DNA of 45,264 nt, from positions 1-45,264 of the forward strand of contig JACRIR010000077.1 of assembly GCA_016215705.1 (NCBI GenBank), written 5' to 3'. A model generated the notes under the pieces. That model did no database searches, had not been told where the DNA came from, and was given only the letters and a program-made list of their open reading frames with translations. The position numbers were made by a program, and so were the translations under genes. Positions 12,137-41,560 of this stretch are shown here, in pieces (the first letter of the stretch is position 1; each line of letters begins with the position of its first letter). Origin of the DNA: Candidatus Poribacteria bacterium. GTDB lineage: Bacteria; Abyssobacteria; SURF-5.

Positions 12137-12181
12137 CCTGAATTGGGGGACACATTGCGGCAAGGTGTCCCCCAATTAAGG
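12137..12181. repeat. REP-like hairpin, diverged copy (AATTGGGGGACAC)
   Basis: AATTGGGGGACAC at 12141-12153 pairs perfectly with GTGTCCCCCAATT at 12165-12177 across an 11-nt loop. It is the diverged member of the family whose near-identical copies lie at 15982-16030, 35337-35385 and 43780-43826. No T-run follows. Confidence 0.85.
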
Positions 12182-32213: not shown

Positions 32214-33518
32214 TTGGATTTTCCGGTCGTTGAAGTTCCTTTGATCGGTGGCCGTATGCTTATCGCACTTGTCGGAATCATCCATGTGCTGATAAGTCAT
32301 GGCTGCGCGGTGGGTGGCTCATTTTTTCTGGTCCTGCTCGAATATAAGTCGATTCGAGAACGCAACGAGCGACTCAACCTGGTGGCATATCGGCTGACTC
32401 GCTGGTTTTTTATCCTGACTACTTCCGTCGGCGCGATGACGGGTGTGGGCATCTGGTTTACCACTAACATGTTCTCGCCGGTGGGAATCGGATCGCTCCT
32501 GCGGGTGTTCTTTTGGGCGTGGTTCGTCGAATGGCTCGTATTCATAACCGAAATAGTTCTCGTGGCGGTTTACTACCTCTCGTGGCGGCGCATGTCGCCG
32601 CAGAAACATCTGAGAGTAGGAATCGCTTACATTCTGACCTCTTTACAAACCATGATCATAATCGTGGGAATTCTGGGGTTCCAGCTTACGTCCGGGAAAT
32701 GGATGTCCACTCGTTCGTTCTGGGACGGCTTTTTCAACCCCACATATGTTCCTCAGTTGTTCAGCAGAATCGCGTTGGCCGGGATTCTGGCCTGTGCATT
32801 CTGCCTTCTCATTTACGCCTTCCTGCGCGACCTGCGCGATGTCCGGACGCAGTTCCTGCGGTTCTCGGGCGCATACCTTCTGTTCGTGAGTCCGCTCTAT
32901 CTGCTCGCCACGTTCGCGTACTATCAGGTCTTGCCGGAGCGAGCGCAAGCTTTTATATCCGTCGCGCTTGTTACGCTCCAACTGACACAATACGCTCAAT
33001 GGAGCAAAATATTCTTCGTCGCTGTTGTGGGGGTTATGCTCTTGACGGGCGCCGTCTTATTTCTCAAGCAAAGGACATACGGCGTTCTTTCAATCTTGCC
33101 GATACTTGTGCTCACCGTCGCGGTTGCGCAATTCGAGAGGGTCCGCGAGTTCGCTCGCAAGCCCTACGTGGTCGACGGCTATTTATACAGCAACGGTTTT
33201 CGTAAGGTGGAACTACCCTTTATTTCGGACGTAGGGGCATCGCGATACGCAACATGGGCGTGGCGAGGGCTTGACCAGAAGAAAGGCGATGCCGCCTTGG
33301 GACACATGCTGTTCCGGCTGGAATGCTCGACTTGCCACACTTATCGCGGCATAAACGGGATTTTCAGGAAGAAGATACTTGCACCCGGCGAGGAAGCAGC
33401 GTTAAGATTTCTCAATACCTACGAGTTCTCGCATCCGTATATGCCCCCATTCGCCGGCACACAGAGTGAGAAAGAGGCCCTGGCGTATTTCTTGGGCGAA
33501 GGCGCAACGAAAAAATGA
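32214..33518 (+). CDS. CydA-like membrane protein with C-terminal cytochrome c domain, subunit 1
   Basis: Integral membrane protein of 434 aa with about nine hydrophobic helices followed by a periplasmic monohaem c domain (CSTCH at 371-375, distal ligand probably Met in YMPPF). The N-terminal half resembles cytochrome bd subunit I: LIALVGIIHVLISHGCAVGG with His24/His29 in the first helix, and SVGAMTGVGIWFTTN in the place of the CydA GVATGLTMEFQFGTNW region. At the position of the CydA b558 histidine it reads QLFSRIALAG, so that His is missing. The start is TTG at 32214, supported by GGGGAGGG 5-6 nt upstream and an in-frame stop at 32193; no earlier ATG exists. It overlaps the next gene by 4 nt. 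Assignment to the CydA superfamily is by eye. Confidence 0.8.
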   Translation: MDFPVVEVPLIGGRMLIALVGIIHVLISHGCAVGGSFFLVLLEYKSIRERNERLNLVAYRLTRWFFILTTSVGAMTGVGIWFTTNMFSPVGIGSLLRVFFWAWFVEWLVFITEIVLVAVYYLSWRRMSPQKHLRVGIAYILTSLQTMIIIVGILGFQLTSGKWMSTRSFWDGFFNPTYVPQLFSRIALAGILACAFCLLIYAFLRDLRDVRTQFLRFSGAYLLFVSPLYLLATFAYYQVLPERAQAFISVALVTLQLTQYAQWSKIFFVAVVGVMLLTGAVLFLKQRTYGVLSILPILVLTVAVAQFERVREFARKPYVVDGYLYSNGFRKVELPFISDVGASRYATWAWRGLDQKKGDAALGHMLFRLECSTCHTYRGINGIFRKKILAPGEEAALRFLNTYEFSHPYMPPFAGTQSEKEALAYFLGEGATKK

Positions 33519-34786
33519 CGAACATCCCCATCGACATACCGTTGTCATTGCCGGCGCCCGATGGCGTGCTCAAAGCGCTGCTCGTGATAACTTTCATCGT
33601 TCACATTCTGTTTGTCGGACTCATGGTCGGCGGCGCATATTGGAGCGTCATTTTCAAGCTGCTCGGCAAAGAAGACCCCTTCTACGAGCGCCTGGCAAGA
33701 GAAATACTCGATACGGTGACAATCAACAAAAGCCTTGCCGTTGTGCTTGGCGTGGCGCCGCTCCTGCTCATAGGACTGACATACACCGGTTACTGGTACA
33801 CTGCCAACATGATGACCGTCCCGGCGTTTCTGTCAATTATCTGGCTGGTAATCTTCGCGTTCCTATTTTTGTATGCCTACAAATACACATGGGACAGCCT
33901 TGGCGACCGAGCGCCGTTCCTCCATCTGTCCTTCGGATTGTCCGCCTGCGCAATCTTCGCTTTTGTGCCATTGATCTTTTTGGCCAATATCAACCTGATG
34001 CTCCTGCCATTCCGGTGGGATGCCACCAAAGGATTCATTCAGGCGCTGCTCTTGCCAAATGTCTTGTTCAGATACATGCACTTTTTCGTGGCCGTGTTCG
34101 CCATAATCGGATTCTTTGCTGCAATATATTTTTGGTGCCGAGGGCGGAAATCCGACGACCTGTTCTACATGCGGTCGCAAAAACTCGGCCTGAAATGGGC
34201 GTTGGGCGGCACATTGCTGCAAAGCATTTTTGGAACACTGAATTTCATATCCCTGCCGCAAGGCGCATACTCGAGAACTTTACTGATACATATTGCCGCC
34301 GCTCTGGCGCTGGCGGCGGTGGCCTGCATCGCGCTTGTGCGCGCGCTTCTGACGACGTCCGGCAAACCCATTGTCGCCGCCGTCGCGCTGCTCGGAGTAG
34401 TCGCTCTGCTAATGAGCTTCGTGCGGCATACCGTCAGGGAGAATCTCTTGCGAGAACCCCGAATGGTGGCCAACCAGCGCACGCTGGAATATCAAACATC
34501 GTTGGCGACGTTTCTGAAGACATACACGCCGGAAAGCGGGAAACTGCTCAGTGGCGAGGACCTGTTCAAGCGCTACTGCACGAGTTGTCACGCGCGCGAC
34601 CGGCTGCTCCTTGGGCCGTCAACGCAATACATGGTTCAGAAATACAAGGGCAAGAAGGAAGACATGGCGGCGTTTGTCTTGAACCCCAAGAAAGTCAATC
34701 CCGATCTTCCGAGCATGCCCAAACCTCCGATAGGTCAGTATGAAATCGAGGAGATTGTCGAATATATTCTGGGCGGGAGTCGCTAG
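33515..34786 (+). CDS. CydA-like membrane protein with C-terminal cytochrome c domain, subunit 2
   Basis: Distant paralogue of the preceding protein, 423 aa, same architecture: about nine membrane helices, then a monohaem c domain (CTSCH at 355-359; candidate Met ligand in LPSMPKPP). His30 in FIVHILFVGLMVGG matches the first-helix histidine of CydA. Unlike subunit 1 it keeps a histidine, His189 in RYMHFFVAVFAI, at the place of E. coli CydA His186. The ATGA overlap with subunit 1 and the 3-nt gap to actA show tight co-translation. Together the pair may form a haem-bearing membrane module that docks on ACIII, either passing electrons to an external acceptor through the c haems or reducing oxygen. 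The function is inferred only. Confidence 0.8.
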   Translation: MTNIPIDIPLSLPAPDGVLKALLVITFIVHILFVGLMVGGAYWSVIFKLLGKEDPFYERLAREILDTVTINKSLAVVLGVAPLLLIGLTYTGYWYTANMMTVPAFLSIIWLVIFAFLFLYAYKYTWDSLGDRAPFLHLSFGLSACAIFAFVPLIFLANINLMLLPFRWDATKGFIQALLLPNVLFRYMHFFVAVFAIIGFFAAIYFWCRGRKSDDLFYMRSQKLGLKWALGGTLLQSIFGTLNFISLPQGAYSRTLLIHIAAALALAAVACIALVRALLTTSGKPIVAAVALLGVVALLMSFVRHTVRENLLREPRMVANQRTLEYQTSLATFLKTYTPESGKLLSGEDLFKRYCTSCHARDRLLLGPSTQYMVQKYKGKKEDMAAFVLNPKKVNPDLPSMPKPPIGQYEIEEIVEYILGGSR

Positions 34787-34789
34787 ACC

Positions 34790-35299
34790 ATGAAGACAAT
34801 CGCGATCTACGTTGTGATTGTCGCATGGTTCGCCGCAGTTGTGGTGGCAGTGGCCGCGTTCGGGCTCATGCAGGAGCCATCAATGAGGCCAAAGCAGCCG
34901 ATCGAGTATCCTCACCATACCCATGTGCAAGACGTCGGCATGCAATGCCTCGATTGTCATCGCTATGCTGAAAAGTCGATATATGCCACCATCCCGGGAA
35001 CGGACATTTGCATGGGCTGTCATGAGTCTGTGGCCACCGATAAGCCGGAAATCATAAAACTGACGGAAGCATACCGTTCCGGCAAGCCGGTCGGGTGGGT
35101 GCGTGTGTATCAGGTGAAACCGCATGTCTACTTCTCGCACAAGCGGCATGTTCTGAGCGGCATGAAGTGCCAGGAATGTCACGGGCCGGTCGAGCAGATG
35201 ACCACCGTCCAGCGTGTCACCGACCTCGGCATGGGGTGGTGCGTGAAATGTCATAGAACCCGGGGAGCGCCGAGAGAGTGCGACACTTGTCATAAATGA
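34790..35299 (+). CDS. actA: ACIII pentahaem cytochrome c subunit
   Basis: Membrane-anchored periplasmic multihaem cytochrome, 169 aa. One N-terminal hydrophobic helix (AIYVVIVAWFAAVVVAVAAF) serves as anchor. Five CxxCH haem sites follow: CLDCH, CMGCH, CQECH, CVKCH and CDTCH, with extra histidines (YPHHTHV, FSHKRHV) for bis-His ligation. Five haems, the anchor and the position before a Mo/FeS fusion gene match ActA of alternative complex III. Starts 3 nt after the preceding stop. A REP-like hairpin follows it. Confidence 0.93.
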   Translation: MKTIAIYVVIVAWFAAVVVAVAAFGLMQEPSMRPKQPIEYPHHTHVQDVGMQCLDCHRYAEKSIYATIPGTDICMGCHESVATDKPEIIKLTEAYRSGKPVGWVRVYQVKPHVYFSHKRHVLSGMKCQECHGPVEQMTTVQRVTDLGMGWCVKCHRTRGAPRECDTCHK

Positions 35300-35336
35300 G
35301 TCCAAGGTCGCAATAGAGGGTGTCTGCGGGGCGTCT

Positions 35337-35385
35337 GGCCTTAATTCGGGGACACCATGCCGCATGGTGTCCCCGAATTAAGGCC
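35337..35385. repeat. REP-like perfect hairpin inside the ACIII operon
   Basis: Arms 35337-35359 and 35363-35385 are exact reverse complements (23 bp) with a CCG loop. The core is identical to those at 15982-16030 and 43780-43826. It fills much of the 109-nt gap between actA and actB, the only long gap in the first four genes of the operon, and could protect or attenuate the transcript there. Confidence 0.95.
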
Positions 35386-35408
35386 CCAAAGCCGAAGATC
35401 AAAAGAGA

Positions 35409-38381
35409 ATGTGGCGTCTTACACGGAAAAGTAGGAGCGTGATACATCTGAGAAGAGGTTTCAGCAGAATCAGCCGGAGACGATTCCTCGCAACAAGCGG
35501 GCTTGCAGGCGCGGCCGCAATGGCGCCCGTCGGGCGCGCGCGCGCGGGCGTGATACTCAAACACCTCATTCCGGAAGAAGACATAATTCCCGGCGTATCA
35601 TACTGGTTGAATTCAACATGCAGTGAATGTCCGGCAGGCTGTGGCGTCAAAGTGCGCCTCCGGGAGGGCAACGCGGTCAAGATCGAGGGCAACGAGAATC
35701 ACCCCGTGAACCATGGCGGGCTCTGCGCGCGCGGACAATCTGCTCTGCAGGCGCTATACAGCCCGGCGCGGATTCAAACGCCTCTGAGACGAAATGCAGG
35801 CGGGCGAATGGACCCGACAGGTTGGAAGGACGCCTTCGACCTCATAGCCCGCTCCACGTCTGCGAGCGGCTCTTCGGAAAAAGTGGTCGTTGTAACGAGC
35901 CAGGTTACAGGCGCTATGCGCGCAATGCTCGAGCGGTTCGCCGCCGGTTCGCCGAAGTTCAACTTCTTCGTTTGCGAGCCATTGGATTACGCGCCGGTCG
36001 CCGCCGCCAATAAGCTTTGTTTCGGGCTCGAGGCAGTTCCGACTTATTCCTTCGATAAAGCGCGCACGATAGTCTCGTTCGGCGCCGACTTTCTCGAAAC
36101 GTGGTTGTCGCCCGTCAGCAACGCTCACGGGTACGCCATATCCCGGAATCCGACCAATGGCGCTATGAGCAGGATGATTCAGTTCGAATCTTATATGTCT
36201 CTCACCGGCGCAAACGCCGACGAACGATATTGCTGTCCGCCGGGAGTTGAAACATTGGTCGCGCTTTCAATCGCATCACGGATGCTATCCGGAACGGCAT
36301 TGCCGGCAAGCGAGTGGGAAACATGGCGGAGCGCGCTGCGGCCGTTCACAATCGAGCGCGCCGCGAAGGCGGCCGGTGTCCCGCCGCAAGTATTAGAGCA
36401 GGTTGCCGACAGGCTGCGTTCTCAAACGCCGAGCTTGGCGCTAGCCGGGGGACCGAGTTCACACTCCACTTGTGCGACGGCGTTGCAGGTGGCCGTCAAC
36501 CTCATCAATTTCAGCGCGGGCGGGTATGGCAAGACGCTCACTTTCGACCGAGCCGAGCATGCGCCCGTTGGCACATACAGCCAATTGCTCGATTTGGTCG
36601 AGGATATGGAAGCCGGACGCGTCTCGACGCTCATCGTTCACGAATGTAATCCCCTGTTCGCATTCCCCGAACCGGAGCGGTTGAAGACGGCAATGAAGCG
36701 CGCGCCCCTCAAGATTCAGTTGGCTTCGGTCAGGGATAGCGCAAGCGAATCGTATGATATTGTTCTGCCTGCGCTTCATTGGCTCGAGCGATGGGACAAG
36801 GTTGAGTCTCGCAGCGGAGTCTATAGCTTGCAACAGCCCGTCATCAAGCCGTGGTGTGATGCCAGGCATGCGGGCCAGGCGCTGAGCGATATTATGGCCG
36901 TTTTGCCGGATCACACGACCAGGATGCCGGAAGACTACCAACAATTCTTGCGGGAGCGGTGGGAAAACATTCCCGGGGATAGGTCGGCTTCCGAGGATTC
37001 CGATGATTTCTGGAAACAAGTTCTTACGGACGGTGGGTATTGGGCGCCGCCGGTCTCACGGAAAGTAACCCTGAACGCGCGCGCCGCCGAGGCGATAAGC
37101 GATTTCGCGCCGATGGTTTCACTATCCGGCGAGCATGTGCTCCTGCCGGTCACGACAGTTCGCTATGGTGATGGACGCCAGACCGGCAGACCCTGGCTCT
37201 ACGAAATGCCCGACCCGATCACCTTGATTGTGTGGGACACTCCTCTCCTCATATCACTCGGCACATCAAAGAAATGGAACTGCCAATCGGGTGATATCGT
37301 CAGGCTCAAGTGCGATAAGGGTTTTCTGGAGGCGCCGGTTTACGTTCAGTCCGGCACACACGACGCCGTTGTGGCAGTTTCTCTCGGCGCCCCCAGTGAC
37401 AAGTACGCCTCATTTTATTTCGAGCCGGCGAATCATCCCCTGCACCGTCTGAGAGGTGACATCGACAAGTTCTCCGGCGCCCTCTCATGGGTCGGCACGC
37501 CACTTACGTTTGAAGGAGTCACAGGTCACAACCGGCTTGCTCGCCTGCAAGGTTCCGGCCGCCAGGACGGCCGCGGCATCGCACAAACCATCGCGACCAC
37601 CGAGGTCGGCAAGCTGGGCAAGGCAAGCCGACGGCCCGCAACACTTGAGTTCGACCTGTATCCGAAACACGAACACCCGGTGCACGACTGGGGCATGGTG
37701 ATCGACCTTTCGGTCTGCATCGGATGCGGCGCATGCGCGGTCGCGTGCTACGCGGAAAACAACGTCCACGTCGTCGGAAAGAATGAATGCCTGCGCGGCC
37801 GCGAGCAGTCGTGGCTTCGAATAGAGCGATTTATTGATAAGGGGCGCACTGTTTTCCTGCCGGCGTTGTGCCAGCAGTGCGAGCACGCTCCGTGCGAGAC
37901 CGTCTGCCCCGTTTATGCCGCCGTGCACAGCAGCGAAGGGCTTGATGTGCAGGTCTACAACCGCTGCGTCGGCACACGCTATTGCGCGAACAATTGTCCG
38001 TATAAGGTGCGCAGGTTCAATTGGTTCACATACAAGGTCGATCCGCCGCTGGAGAAGCAGTTTAATCCTGATGTTTTTGTCCGCACTCGCGGAATCATGG
38101 AAAAATGCACATTCTGTATTCAGCGAATTCGAGAGCACAAGGAAATCGCCAAAGACGAGAAACGCCGGCTGCGCGACGGCGAAGTAGTGCCCGCCTGCGC
38201 GCAAAGCTGTCCGACCGGCGCCATCCGTTTCGGCGACTTGAAGGACCCGGCCAGCCAGGTATCAAAGCAAATGGATGATCCGCGAGGCTATGCCATACTC
38301 GCGGAACTGAACACTCAGCCGTCGATTCTCTATCTCAAGCGCGTTTACCATGCCGACGGCACGGTTACGGAGACATTGTGA
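35409..38381 (+). CDS. actB: ACIII molybdopterin-like/iron-sulfur fusion subunit
   Basis: Large periplasmic subunit of alternative complex III, 990 aa. A Tat signal SRRRFLATSGLAGAA lies at 22-36. The first part is a molybdopterin oxidoreductase-like domain with C71-x2-C74-x3-C78-x27-C106 (TCSECPAGC, then GGLCARG), followed by the usual long domain (for example HECNPLFAFPEPERLKTAMK) to about 730. The C-terminal ferredoxin part, from about 760, has four cysteine motifs: CIGCGACAVAC, CQQCEHAPCETVCP, CVGTRYCANNCPYK and CTFCIQRI with CAQSCPTGAI. ActB of characterised ACIII has this two-part fusion and is not thought to bind an active molybdenum cofactor (established knowledge). The ribosome site AAGAGA before the ATG is weak. 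actC follows 7 nt downstream. Confidence 0.94.
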   Translation: MWRLTRKSRSVIHLRRGFSRISRRRFLATSGLAGAAAMAPVGRARAGVILKHLIPEEDIIPGVSYWLNSTCSECPAGCGVKVRLREGNAVKIEGNENHPVNHGGLCARGQSALQALYSPARIQTPLRRNAGGRMDPTGWKDAFDLIARSTSASGSSEKVVVVTSQVTGAMRAMLERFAAGSPKFNFFVCEPLDYAPVAAANKLCFGLEAVPTYSFDKARTIVSFGADFLETWLSPVSNAHGYAISRNPTNGAMSRMIQFESYMSLTGANADERYCCPPGVETLVALSIASRMLSGTALPASEWETWRSALRPFTIERAAKAAGVPPQVLEQVADRLRSQTPSLALAGGPSSHSTCATALQVAVNLINFSAGGYGKTLTFDRAEHAPVGTYSQLLDLVEDMEAGRVSTLIVHECNPLFAFPEPERLKTAMKRAPLKIQLASVRDSASESYDIVLPALHWLERWDKVESRSGVYSLQQPVIKPWCDARHAGQALSDIMAVLPDHTTRMPEDYQQFLRERWENIPGDRSASEDSDDFWKQVLTDGGYWAPPVSRKVTLNARAAEAISDFAPMVSLSGEHVLLPVTTVRYGDGRQTGRPWLYEMPDPITLIVWDTPLLISLGTSKKWNCQSGDIVRLKCDKGFLEAPVYVQSGTHDAVVAVSLGAPSDKYASFYFEPANHPLHRLRGDIDKFSGALSWVGTPLTFEGVTGHNRLARLQGSGRQDGRGIAQTIATTEVGKLGKASRRPATLEFDLYPKHEHPVHDWGMVIDLSVCIGCGACAVACYAENNVHVVGKNECLRGREQSWLRIERFIDKGRTVFLPALCQQCEHAPCETVCPVYAAVHSSEGLDVQVYNRCVGTRYCANNCPYKVRRFNWFTYKVDPPLEKQFNPDVFVRTRGIMEKCTFCIQRIREHKEIAKDEKRRLRDGEVVPACAQSCPTGAIRFGDLKDPASQVSKQMDDPRGYAILAELNTQPSILYLKRVYHADGTVTETL

Positions 38382-38388
38382 AACTGCC

Positions 38389-39723
38389 ATGACCAACGAG
38401 CACACTCGAGACAGATTTGAGCAGATCGACCGGCTTGTGCTTCGGTCATTACTGCGACCCGGGAAGCTTTATATCGCTTTCTCCGCGGTTGTGCTGGTGT
38501 GCCTCGGTCTCGGTGTTTTCGCCTACTCGCGGATAATCACTGTCGCGATCGGTGTGACGGGGAAAAACAATCCGGTGCATTGGGGCGCGCTCATAACCAA
38601 TTTTGTCTTTTGGGTCGGTCTGGCCCACTCAGGCACACTCATATCAGCTATACTCTACCTTTTCAGGGCAAGGTGGCGGACGAGCATCAACCGCATTGCC
38701 GAGGCGATGACCGTGGTCGCCATCATGACAGCCGGACTTTTCCCCCTTGTTCACATGGGGCGCGTATGGCGCGCCTACTATCTTGTGCCATATCCGAATT
38801 CCCGTGAACTGTGGCCGAACTTCCGCAGTCCTCTGCTGTGGGACGTGTTTGCTATCACCACATATATGCTCGTAAGCATTATGTTCTTTTACGTCGGATT
38901 GATACCCGACCTTGCAACGGTTCGCGACCGCTCCAATGGCCTTGTAAAGAAGGTGTACTCGCTTCTTTCTCTGGGCTGGCGCGGGAGCAACCGTCAGTGG
39001 CATCATTACGAGACGACCTACCTGCTGCTGGCCGCGCTCGCGACGCCGCTTGTAATCTCTGTACACAGTGTGGTCAGTTGGGACTTTGCGGTCTCTTTGG
39101 TTCCCGGATGGCACAGCACAATTTTCGCGCCCTATTTTGTGGCAGGCGCCATATTCTCCGGATGCGCCATGATTATCGTGATACTGATGCCGATGCGCAA
39201 GTTCCTGGGGCTCGAGAATCTCATCGAGCCCTTGCATTTCAGCATGCTCTGCAAGATGCTTATTTTCATGAGCCTGATAATCACCTATTCATATTTCTCG
39301 GAGTTCTTTGTCGCGTGGTACAGCGGCAACGTCTTCGAGCAACACAGCTTCTACAACCGCGCGTTCGGGTTCTACAGCCCGTTGTTCTGGGTTATGGTCC
39401 TATGCAATTCGATTCTGCCAATCACGCTCTTCAGCGCGCGGCTGCGCTCAAATATGATTTATGTGTACGTTGTGGCGGTTTGCGTCGTGATCGGCATGTG
39501 GCTTGAAAGGTTTGTGATTATTGTCAGCAGTCTGTCTCAGGATTATGACCCTTATGCATGGGGACAATACTGGCCCTCAATTGTCGAGTGGGGCATCACG
39601 TTGGGCAGTTTCGGGATGTTCTTCTTCATGTTCGGAATGCTTACCAGGATATTCCCCGTTGTGGCGATGGGCGAGGTCAAATCGCAACTCCGCCCCGGGC
39701 CGGGAGATGCCGGTCATGCGTGA
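38389..39723 (+). CDS. actC: ACIII NrfD-like quinol-binding membrane subunit
   Basis: Integral membrane protein, 444 aa, about ten helices, NrfD/PsrC family; the quinol-oxidising subunit of ACIII. HWGALITNFVFWVGLAHSGT, FPLVHMGRVWRAYYLVPYP, and HSVVSWDFAVSLVPGWHSTIFAPYFVAGA are typical ActC segments. The ATG at 38389 is chosen over one at 38350 inside actB because the family sequence begins after it. It overlaps actD by 8 nt. Confidence 0.93.
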   Translation: MTNEHTRDRFEQIDRLVLRSLLRPGKLYIAFSAVVLVCLGLGVFAYSRIITVAIGVTGKNNPVHWGALITNFVFWVGLAHSGTLISAILYLFRARWRTSINRIAEAMTVVAIMTAGLFPLVHMGRVWRAYYLVPYPNSRELWPNFRSPLLWDVFAITTYMLVSIMFFYVGLIPDLATVRDRSNGLVKKVYSLLSLGWRGSNRQWHHYETTYLLLAALATPLVISVHSVVSWDFAVSLVPGWHSTIFAPYFVAGAIFSGCAMIIVILMPMRKFLGLENLIEPLHFSMLCKMLIFMSLIITYSYFSEFFVAWYSGNVFEQHSFYNRAFGFYSPLFWVMVLCNSILPITLFSARLRSNMIYVYVVAVCVVIGMWLERFVIIVSSLSQDYDPYAWGQYWPSIVEWGITLGSFGMFFFMFGMLTRIFPVVAMGEVKSQLRPGPGDAGHA

Positions 39724-40240
39724 CAAGCGTCCGATATTGCTTGCGGTCTTCTCGAGTCCGCAAGAGTTGACCGAGGGCATCAATTCGATGCTGCGCTCCG
39801 GCCACAAGACGATGGAAGCGCTCAGCCCGATTCCGCTGCCGGAGTTGGAAGACCTGCTTCATCAGCCGACCGACATTGTGCGCTGGTTCGCGCTCGGTGG
39901 CTGCATCGTCGGAGGTGTGTTCGGAATGGCGCTCCAGGCATTGACCGTCCTTCATTGGCCGCTCCTGGTCGGCGGGAAGCCTCCTCTTTCATGGCCTGCG
40001 TTCGTGGTAATCGGCTTCGAAATGGCGATCCTCTTCGGAGCGCTTGCAACTCTTGCTGGATTCATGTTGAGCGCAAAACTACCGCCCATCGCAAAGGAGC
40101 ATTACCATATTGGCTGTTCACAGAGCGATTTTGCCTTGCTGGTTTGGCATCACGAATTGGATTATGCGTCGATCGAGATACAGTTGAAGGCCGTCGGAGC
40201 GCGCGAAGTTCGGCTTCCTGAGACCGAAGCTCCCGGGTGA
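39716..40240 (+). CDS. actD: ACIII membrane subunit, DUF3341 type
   Basis: Small ACIII subunit, 174 aa, with two central hydrophobic helices (VRWFALGGCIVGGVFGMAL and AFVVIGFEMAILFGALATLAG) and soluble ends. Begins RDKRPILLAVFSSPQELTEG, typical of DUF3341/ActD, with the later PLPELEDLL region and a short C-terminal domain (CSQSDFALLVWHHELDYASI). GGGAG lies about 9 nt before the ATG at 39716. The frame runs further upstream inside actC, which I take as overlap, not coding. About 110 nt follow before actF, the second-longest gap of the operon, with no clear element. Confidence 0.88.
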   Translation: MRDKRPILLAVFSSPQELTEGINSMLRSGHKTMEALSPIPLPELEDLLHQPTDIVRWFALGGCIVGGVFGMALQALTVLHWPLLVGGKPPLSWPAFVVIGFEMAILFGALATLAGFMLSAKLPPIAKEHYHIGCSQSDFALLVWHHELDYASIEIQLKAVGAREVRLPETEAPG

Positions 40241-40349
40241 GAGCGTCCGGCAGTCGGCAGCTTGGTGAAAACCGGCGCACGAGCGAATTTCGGGACAGAT
40301 TCAAGTCAGGGTTTGCTGAATAGGTTCTCTTGTTGCGAGGTCACCTTGA

Positions 40350-41372
40350 ATGATGAACAAGCTCATTGACCAGTTCTGGCAAGCGTACCTGGTCAACTTC
40401 CTGTTCTGGATCAGCCTCGCACAAGGCAGCGTCGTCTTCGCGGCTGTGCTGGACATCACGAACGCCAGGTGGGGGAGGCGCTATGTCCAACTGTCCCGAT
40501 ATTTCGCCGGCTTCTTGCCGGCCGGCATCGCGCTATTTGCGATCTTGCTCCTTGGCCGTAATCATCTGTTCCCCTGGATTGCTGAACCAATACCTGGTAA
40601 AGCCGTGTATCTCAATGTGCCATTCCTCGCGGCGCGCGGCCTGTTCGGATTAGCCATTCTAACCATGCTCAGTTGGAAGTTCATGTCCGCAACGAAGAAC
40701 AGATATTCTCACGCCGCGCGTTCCGGCGGGTCGGGGTGGAGCGTCATTCTCGTGATGGCCTTCATGATTGTCTATAGCTACGTCGCGGTGGACCTCATGA
40801 TGTCCCTGCAGCCCCATTGGCACAGCACGCTGTTCGGAGCGCATTTCGCGGTCGGCTCTCTGTACCTCGGCATGGCCGGTCTGTGCTTCGTGGGCATTCT
40901 GAGCGGAGGTGTTCCCCGCGAAGACCGCCAGAAGCTTTGTCAACTTCTGTTCGGCTTTTCTCTGTTCTGGATTTCATTGCTGTGGAGCCAGTATATTGTC
41001 ATCTGGTATGGGGACATACCGGATGAGGCGTCTTTCGTTTATCTTCGGTTCTACTACATGCCTTGGAAAGCGGTCTCAATCGCCGTGCTCGCGCTGGGAT
41101 TCGTTTTCCCGTTCAGCGCCTTGATGTCTCGACGCGCGAAGCTCATAGGCGTTGTCCCCTTCTTTTCATCGGCCTCCGTGGCCCTCGGCCTATTGCTCGA
41201 AAAATACTTATTTGTCGTTCCCTCATTGAGCCCTGACAAGTTGGGCTCAATAGGGGTTCTTGCGCTGATGGCAGTGGCTTTTGCGGCCTTATTCGGTCTT
41301 AGTTACAGGTTCTCTGTCCGACGCGCAAAGCCGGAAGCACGGGATTCTGTCTCTGACGGACTCATTTCTTAG
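40350..41372 (+). CDS. actF: ACIII second NrfD-like membrane subunit
   Basis: Second NrfD-family membrane protein, 340 aa, about nine helices, equivalent to ActF. Motifs shared with ActC include [22 protein letters not shown] (split here around the histidines) and [15 protein letters not shown]. ActE, the monohaem cytochrome c that usually lies between ActD and ActF, is absent: the 109 nt between the two genes hold no frame of that size. GAGGT is found upstream of the ATG (40350 or 40353). A rubredoxin gene follows 23 nt after the stop. Confidence 0.9.
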
Positions 41373-41395: not shown

Positions 41396-41560
41396 ATGAA
41401 GAAATACACGTGCACCATATGCAGCTATATCTACGACCCGGCTGTGGGCGATCCCGAAAACGGCGTCGCCCCCGGCACCGCATTCGATGATATCCCGGAC
41501 ACGTGGGTGTGCCCGCTGTGCGGCGCCGGCAAAGATTTTTTTGAAGAAACCAAAGACTAA
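41396..41560 (+). CDS. Rubredoxin
   Basis: Small iron protein of 54 aa that carries one Fe(Cys)4 centre. [14 protein letters not shown] and [15 protein letters not shown] supply the two CxxC pairs (Cys6, Cys9, Cys39, Cys42), with the full family core between. The ATG at 41396 has AAGGAGCC 5-8 nt upstream. It lies after actF and before aspA. A ferritin-like protein without its own rubredoxin domain is encoded two genes later, and rubredoxin is a natural electron donor for such proteins. Confidence 0.97.

Follow-up and report, generated by a model that had tools for sequence, protein, structure and literature searches.

For other ACIIIs, the route of the electrons from the FeS clusters of ActB to the haems of ActA has been worked out, and in the ACIII-caa3 supercomplex of R. 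marinus the ACIII contacts the oxidase and hands electrons straight to the oxidase c domain (PMC5928083). ACIII or ACIII-like genes have also been described beside bd-superfamily proteins, namely in Nitrospirales, in which the ACIII is followed by a CydAA' of the OR-N5 type (PMC12342949), and in Ca. Manganitrophus, in which ACIII-like components lie beside the bd-like TO_3 and TO_4 (PMC9040806); such an association is thus already known. According to a 2021 review, all biochemically characterised bd-type cytochromes are quinol oxidases, and a bd enzyme using another donor was still to be characterised (PMC8509429). The Abyssubacteria were described from fluids without detectable O2, with an oxidative phosphorylation set, no cytochrome c oxidase and a proposed anaerobic life (PMC6121073). 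In this lineage we have analysed an operon that we read, with a probability of roughly 0.6 and on the strength of sequence and structure comparisons, as a menaquinol:O2 oxidoreductase made of an ACIII (ActABCDF) and a heterodimeric c-linked bd-superfamily module, P1-P2.

Layout of the operon and its genomic setting

The window, that is, the whole stretch of DNA analysed, is one contig of 45,264 nucleotides belonging to the genome (5.47 Mb, 92% complete) of an uncultured bacterium of the deep subsurface, whose sister in the same family is Candidatus Abyssubacteria SURF_17. The seven frames of the operon lie on the forward strand, where the earlier note had placed them and in the order it gave. 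P1 (32214-33518) is a CydA-like membrane protein with a C-terminal monohaem c domain and the predicted O2-reducing subunit; its start codon is TTG, supported by a conserved MDFP N-terminus. P2 (33515-34786), a second CydA-like protein with a c551-like domain, is its partner and the putative replacement of ActE. The two genes overlap by ATGA, and 3 nt separate P2 from ActA, both as claimed. ActA (34790-35299) is a pentahaem cytochrome c with five CxxCH motifs (best PDB match ACIII subunit A, 8k9e_A, E 3.6e-36), and ActB (35409-38381) is a fused molybdopterin-like and 4Fe-4S protein (best PDB match R. marinus ACIII, 6f0k_B, E 9e-128) in which a motif scan found a Tat-type signal (SRRRFLATSG) and a complete N-terminal 4-Cys motif. 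They are followed by the NrfD-like quinol-binding membrane subunit ActC (38389-39723; Pfam NrfD, E 8e-32), by ActD (about 39707-40240; Pfam ActD, E 1e-37) and by ActF (40350-41372), a second NrfD-like membrane subunit (best PDB match 6f0k_F, E 7e-27). Directly behind actF, on the same strand, lies a rubredoxin gene (41396-41560), absent from the earlier note and of uncertain operon membership, whose position is kept in both relatives (76% and 72% identity); an aspartase/fumarase-like and a rubrerythrin-like protein come next, in agreement with the earlier observation that no oxidase gene follows the operon.

The absence of ActE was borne out as well, as just three frames of at least 60 aa with a CxxCH motif are found in the window, P1, P2 and ActA, none of which is a monohaem ActE, and no CxxCH frame lies between actD and actF in any of the three Abyssubacteria genomes. 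With ActA, a fused ActB, ActC, ActD and ActF in one operon and no monohaem ActE, the complex is a non-canonical ACIII, a variant lacking ActE. Rfam and tRNA scans of the window gave no matches. A palindromic 27-bp element, GGGGACACCATGCCGCATGGTGTCCCC, occurs together with near copies at 12146, 15993, 35348 and 43790 (chance expectation 0), and one copy of this type sits between actA and actB.

The order P1-P2-actABCDF, followed by the rubredoxin and aspartase/fumarase-like genes, is found in 3/3 genomes of the phylum compared; the earlier note had suggested looking for it in other genomes, and both other Abyssubacteria genomes have it. Identity across the three is 57-78% in P1, P2 and ActC and goes down to 44% in ActD, and the conservation of the order is far beyond chance. 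The genome-wide search for a separate haem-copper oxidase that the earlier note had called for found none in the host genome (G000; 92% complete) nor in the relative G002; in the relative G001 the one candidate for COX1, a partial weak match to a small four-helix frame, stayed below the family cut-off. The host genome encodes one canonical CydAB, one ActD only, a Rieske-cytochrome b cluster with a nine-haem protein, a second cytochrome b locus with a molybdoenzyme and an eight-haem protein, and, elsewhere, a separate membrane-anchored monohaem c (C232). Two further molybdoenzyme clusters of the host (C229/L135 and C267/L067) contain multihaem cytochromes with eight or more haems.

Fold and haem ligands of P1 and P2

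In E. coli CydA, H19, E107 and E445 are the active-site haem ligands, H186 and M393 are the ligands of b558, and K252 and E257 belong to the Q-loop. Both proteins at the head of the operon had been read as fusions of a CydA-like protein with a cytochrome c, and their AlphaFold models (pLDDT 81 for P1 and 92 for P2) agree with this: the P1 model best matches CydA chains (Foldseek probability 1.00; VIA Z 28.1 over 315 residues, rmsd 3.1), and so does that of P2 (VIA Z 26.3 over 302 residues, rmsd 3.3). The c domains are equally clear, with a CxxCH at residue 371 and M410 as candidate Met ligand in P1, and a tail that matches c551/c552 (Z 10) in P2. The profile search that had been proposed succeeded in part, in that Pfam recognised P1 as Cyt_bd_oxida_I (E 2.5e-8) and P2 as cytochrome c only, with a sub-cut-off MscS_TM match and no CydA match. 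P1 and P2 are homologues (hhalign E 2e-22) that form separate clades, each with an SH-aLRT of 99.

The ligands were mapped on an alignment of 29 P1 and 25 P2 sequences with E. coli CydA (K-12). Equivalents of H19, E107, E445 and R448 are present in 29/29 P1 sequences, together with a Glu one column off E99; the H186 equivalent and the Q-loop are missing, and M393 is not conserved. In a set of 34 sequences, the P1 residues H24, E106, E113 and E312, mapped on E. coli CydA, are invariant (34/34). P2 keeps the equivalent of H19 in 24/25 and that of H186 in 21/25 sequences, lacks those of E99 and E107 and mostly that of E445, and both proteins lack the equivalents of K252 and E257. By this alignment, P1 seems to have an intact O2 site, neither protein retains the quinol site, and the losses are complementary: that of b558 and the quinol site in P1, and that of the acidic ligands in P2. 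The suggestion of a terminal oxidase module is thereby supported for P1, whose active-site ligands are fully conserved in a genome with no haem-copper oxidase found.

Both proteins belong to the cytochrome bd superfamily by their CydA fold, and P1 also by its active-site haem ligands. They are not quinol-oxidising bd oxidases (qOR, CydAB), as the Q-loop, the b558 ligands and a CydB partner are missing; the partner of P1 is the CydA-like P2. Membership of the OR-N group was rejected from the ligand pattern and from the tree, in which P1 and P2 each cluster separately from the sequences labelled OR-N-like (the label is inferred and does not come from a curated profile). P1 does not fall into the OR-N-like clade, and it has the E445 motif, which OR-N-like sequences lack. 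By exclusion, the P1-P2 pairs are probably to be assigned to OR-C, the family of Murali et al. 2021.

Distribution of the P1-P2 pair and of ActE

A genome scan with patterns derived from Abyssubacteria, and hence biased, recovered 51 P1 loci in many phyla; in almost every one P2 immediately follows P1, and outside Abyssubacteria these loci have no act gene within 10 kb. Because of this bias, we also searched 290 genomes from across Bacteria with profiles. Strong P1 matches were obtained in 23 further genomes, with P2 adjacent or within about 5 kb in 23/23, and no act genes beside the pair in the stretches read. Across this sample P1-P2 and ACIII showed no general association, the ACIII being present in 7/23 genomes with the pair vs 84/290. 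The earlier note had staked its reading on the pair standing next to act genes in relatives; this holds for all three Abyssubacteria, but in other phyla the pair stands alone. The c domain is present on P1 in every member, while P2 often has none, as in Alphaproteobacteria, Bacilli and most of the broad sample. The plasmid matches are stand-alone pairs only; those of Agrobacterium and Methylosinus (L060, L062) adjoin a sensor kinase and response regulator pair, and the Methylosinus pair is also near methanobactin genes. Two P1 frames (L098, 8949-11585, in G223; L106, 7863-10436, in G025) are 860-880 aa long, contain eight CxxCH motifs and are apparently P1-type oxidases fused to a multihaem cytochrome.

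ACIII loci were sought via ActD in the same 290 genomes; 84 contained ActD, and 78 loci were read and annotated. In the loci with ActA and enough sequence, 72 in all, a monohaem frame was scored in the stretch that begins at actD and reaches 2.6 kb beyond it, with an ActE that was displaced or fused to ActD counted as well. A P2 homologue lies upstream of actA in 9/72 loci, and a monohaem frame follows actD in 0/9 of these vs 61/63 of those without the fusion (Fisher p 6e-10, which overstates the significance since the loci are related and the rows not independent). The exclusion is seen in at least the Abyssubacteria, the G074/G093/G216/G075 group, G191 and G069. Six of the loci are non-Abyssubacterial (L213, L216, L218, L219, L220 and L222); a CydA-like/c fusion stands directly upstream of actA in all, ActE is missing in 6/6, and the profile search found no P1 in their genomes. 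Their fusion proteins group as a single clade (100) nested in the P2 family (97) and have lost the equivalent of H186 in 6/6 and that of H19 in 4/6, with the c motif kept. Haem-copper oxidase genes adjoin at least two of these loci, L213 (subunit genes read) and L216 (profile). The fusion-bearing ACIIIs are near neighbours in the trees of both ActC and ActB; for the origin of the ActE-less P2-type complexes the ActC tree needs two changes, and the ActB tree is compatible with one. In ActB, a four-Cys motif of the molybdopterin-like domain is kept in full in 31/73 ACIII loci, all P2-type ones included, and not in the other 42; this motif may mark two kinds of ACIII.

The strong mutual exclusion points to P2 in the role of ActE, and, as the six other ACIIIs carry a ligand-poor P2 homologue without P1, the common part would be the c domain and not the oxidase. 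In these six loci the P2-type protein is probably a membrane-anchored cytochrome c that feeds another acceptor. The comparison supports a distinct ACIII subtype in which P2 would replace ActE, with only Abyssubacteria also keeping the presumably catalytic P1. Of the earlier proposal that the c-domain modules replace ActE, the part concerning P2 agrees with this pattern, and the part concerning P1 has to be given up.

Proposed electron path, alternatives and comparison with known systems

Since P2 keeps haem b ligands and has P1 as a partner, and no haem-copper oxidase was found in the host genome, the simplest reading is a path from ACIII through P1-P2 to O2. In this prediction, which extends to the direction of electron flow, O2 as the acceptor, the haem content and the assembly into one complex, menaquinol would be oxidised at ActC, and the FeS clusters of ActB would relay its electrons to the five haems of ActA. 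P2 would stand in place of ActE, its c551-like domain taking electrons from ActA and delivering them to a di-haem site in P1, perhaps via the c domain of P1 itself, where O2 would be reduced. The operon thus probably encodes a complete quinol-to-oxygen path. The principle has precedents in the ACIII-caa3 contact of R. marinus (PMC5928083), in an F. johnsoniae ACIII that can dispense with ActE (PMC8552683), and in the ACIII or ACIII-like genes next to bd-like proteins of Nitrospirales (PMC12342949) and Manganitrophus (PMC9040806). It is not the sole possible respiratory route, as the genome also has the canonical CydAB and two cytochrome b complexes; with these complexes and the anchored monohaem c, the ACIII may have other acceptors. 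Neither is O2 reduction by P1 forced in a host from fluids without detectable O2 (PMC6121073) that also has a canonical CydAB. The stand-alone pairs without ACIII nearby, and the lack of ACIII enrichment in genomes with the pair, count against the proposed path.

In an alternative that we consider unlikely, P1-P2 is an independent c-linked bd-type oxidase that shares an operon with the ACIII: a soluble or anchored cytochrome c would carry the electrons, no joint complex would form, and ActE would have been lost for other reasons. The profile search shows the pair alone in 23 genomes, as does the genome scan in most of its 51 loci, a monohaem c is encoded elsewhere in the host genome, and ActE is dispensable in F. 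johnsoniae (PMC8552683). However, the strict exclusion of P2-type fusions and ActE, which extends to ACIIIs without P1, would be unexpected if P2 were unrelated to the ACIII. That both proteins merely relay electrons, with ActA at one end and a distinct periplasmic partner at the other, and without O2 chemistry, seems quite improbable; the flow could go either way, Qrc being an example of transfer into menaquinone. Such a role would suit the P2 homologues of the six other ACIIIs, which have lost b-haem ligands and resemble pure c-type carriers, the resemblance of ActA to QrcA (91 bits, cut-off 180) and the anoxic habitat of the host (PMC6121073), but the tested active-site ligands are kept in P1 without exception, and ActD, ActF and a fused ActB are marks of ACIII, not of Qrc. 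Finally, P1-P2 could protect an anaerobe by scavenging O2 (or NO, or peroxide) with electrons from the ACIII, energy conservation being secondary. Rubredoxin behind actF in 3/3 genomes and rubrerythrin-like genes behind the operon and beside cydAB agree with this role. Yet its wiring is identical to that of the quinol:O2 path and the purpose alone differs, and ACIII is regarded as energy-conserving (PMC5928083), an odd property in a pure scavenger; we consider this role very improbable.

Within the preferred reading of a menaquinol:O2 oxidoreductase, an evolutionary course can be offered tentatively, at a little under even odds. A bd-oxidase pair would have been recruited into an ACIII, where P2 displaced ActE and, in several lineages, decayed to a b-haem-less membrane cytochrome c, while Abyssubacteria kept the catalytic P1 and with it a quinol:O2 machine without a haem-copper enzyme. 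If this is true, gene content has assigned a c-type electron donor to an oxidase of the bd family. By naming a specific donor, the ACIII, for a non-quinol bd-type enzyme, the operon makes the question left by the 2021 review testable, and it offers an answer to the puzzle of oxidative phosphorylation without cytochrome c oxidase in Abyssubacteria (PMC6121073). It also suggests that ActE is exchangeable for an oxidase-derived subunit. The literature surveyed (the paper defining OR-C and OR-N is outside it and may cover part of this) yielded no account of the P1-P2 family in association with ACIII, of the exclusion of ActE, or of an operon for the whole path from quinol to oxygen in which no haem-copper enzyme takes part.

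Among the described systems, the Qrc menaquinone reductase shares multihaem c, molybdopterin-like, FeS and NrfD modules with this operon; it was ruled out by scores under the curated cut-offs (QrcA 91/180 bits, QrcB 227/440, QrcC 212/400 and QrcD 37/570) and by the subunit set, in which a fused ActB, ActD and ActF are present. The stand-alone P1-P2 of Flavobacterium, Xanthobacter, Bacillus, Zixibacteria and others share the pair, its ligands and the c domain of P1, but, unlike the Abyssubacteria operon, have no act genes nearby and often a P2 without c domain. Another ACIII/bd-like neighbourhood was read at L125 (5193-11695, in G084), where ActA-ActB is directly followed by an OR-N-like CydA and cytochrome c proteins. 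The likeness to Nitrospirales and Manganitrophus lies in ACIII or ACIII-like genes beside bd-superfamily proteins, although the Nitrospirales ACIII has actE, lacks actF and adjoins an oxidase of the OR-N kind. The canonical ACIIIs of R. marinus, F. johnsoniae, Roseiflexus and Chloroflexus have in common with the present one the pentahaem ActA, the fused ActB, ActC, ActD and ActF, whereas the latter lacks ActE, is led by two CydA-like/c fusions and has no haem-copper oxidase found beside it or in the genome. The R. marinus supercomplex differs in that its terminal enzyme is a haem-copper oxidase and its donor is ActE.
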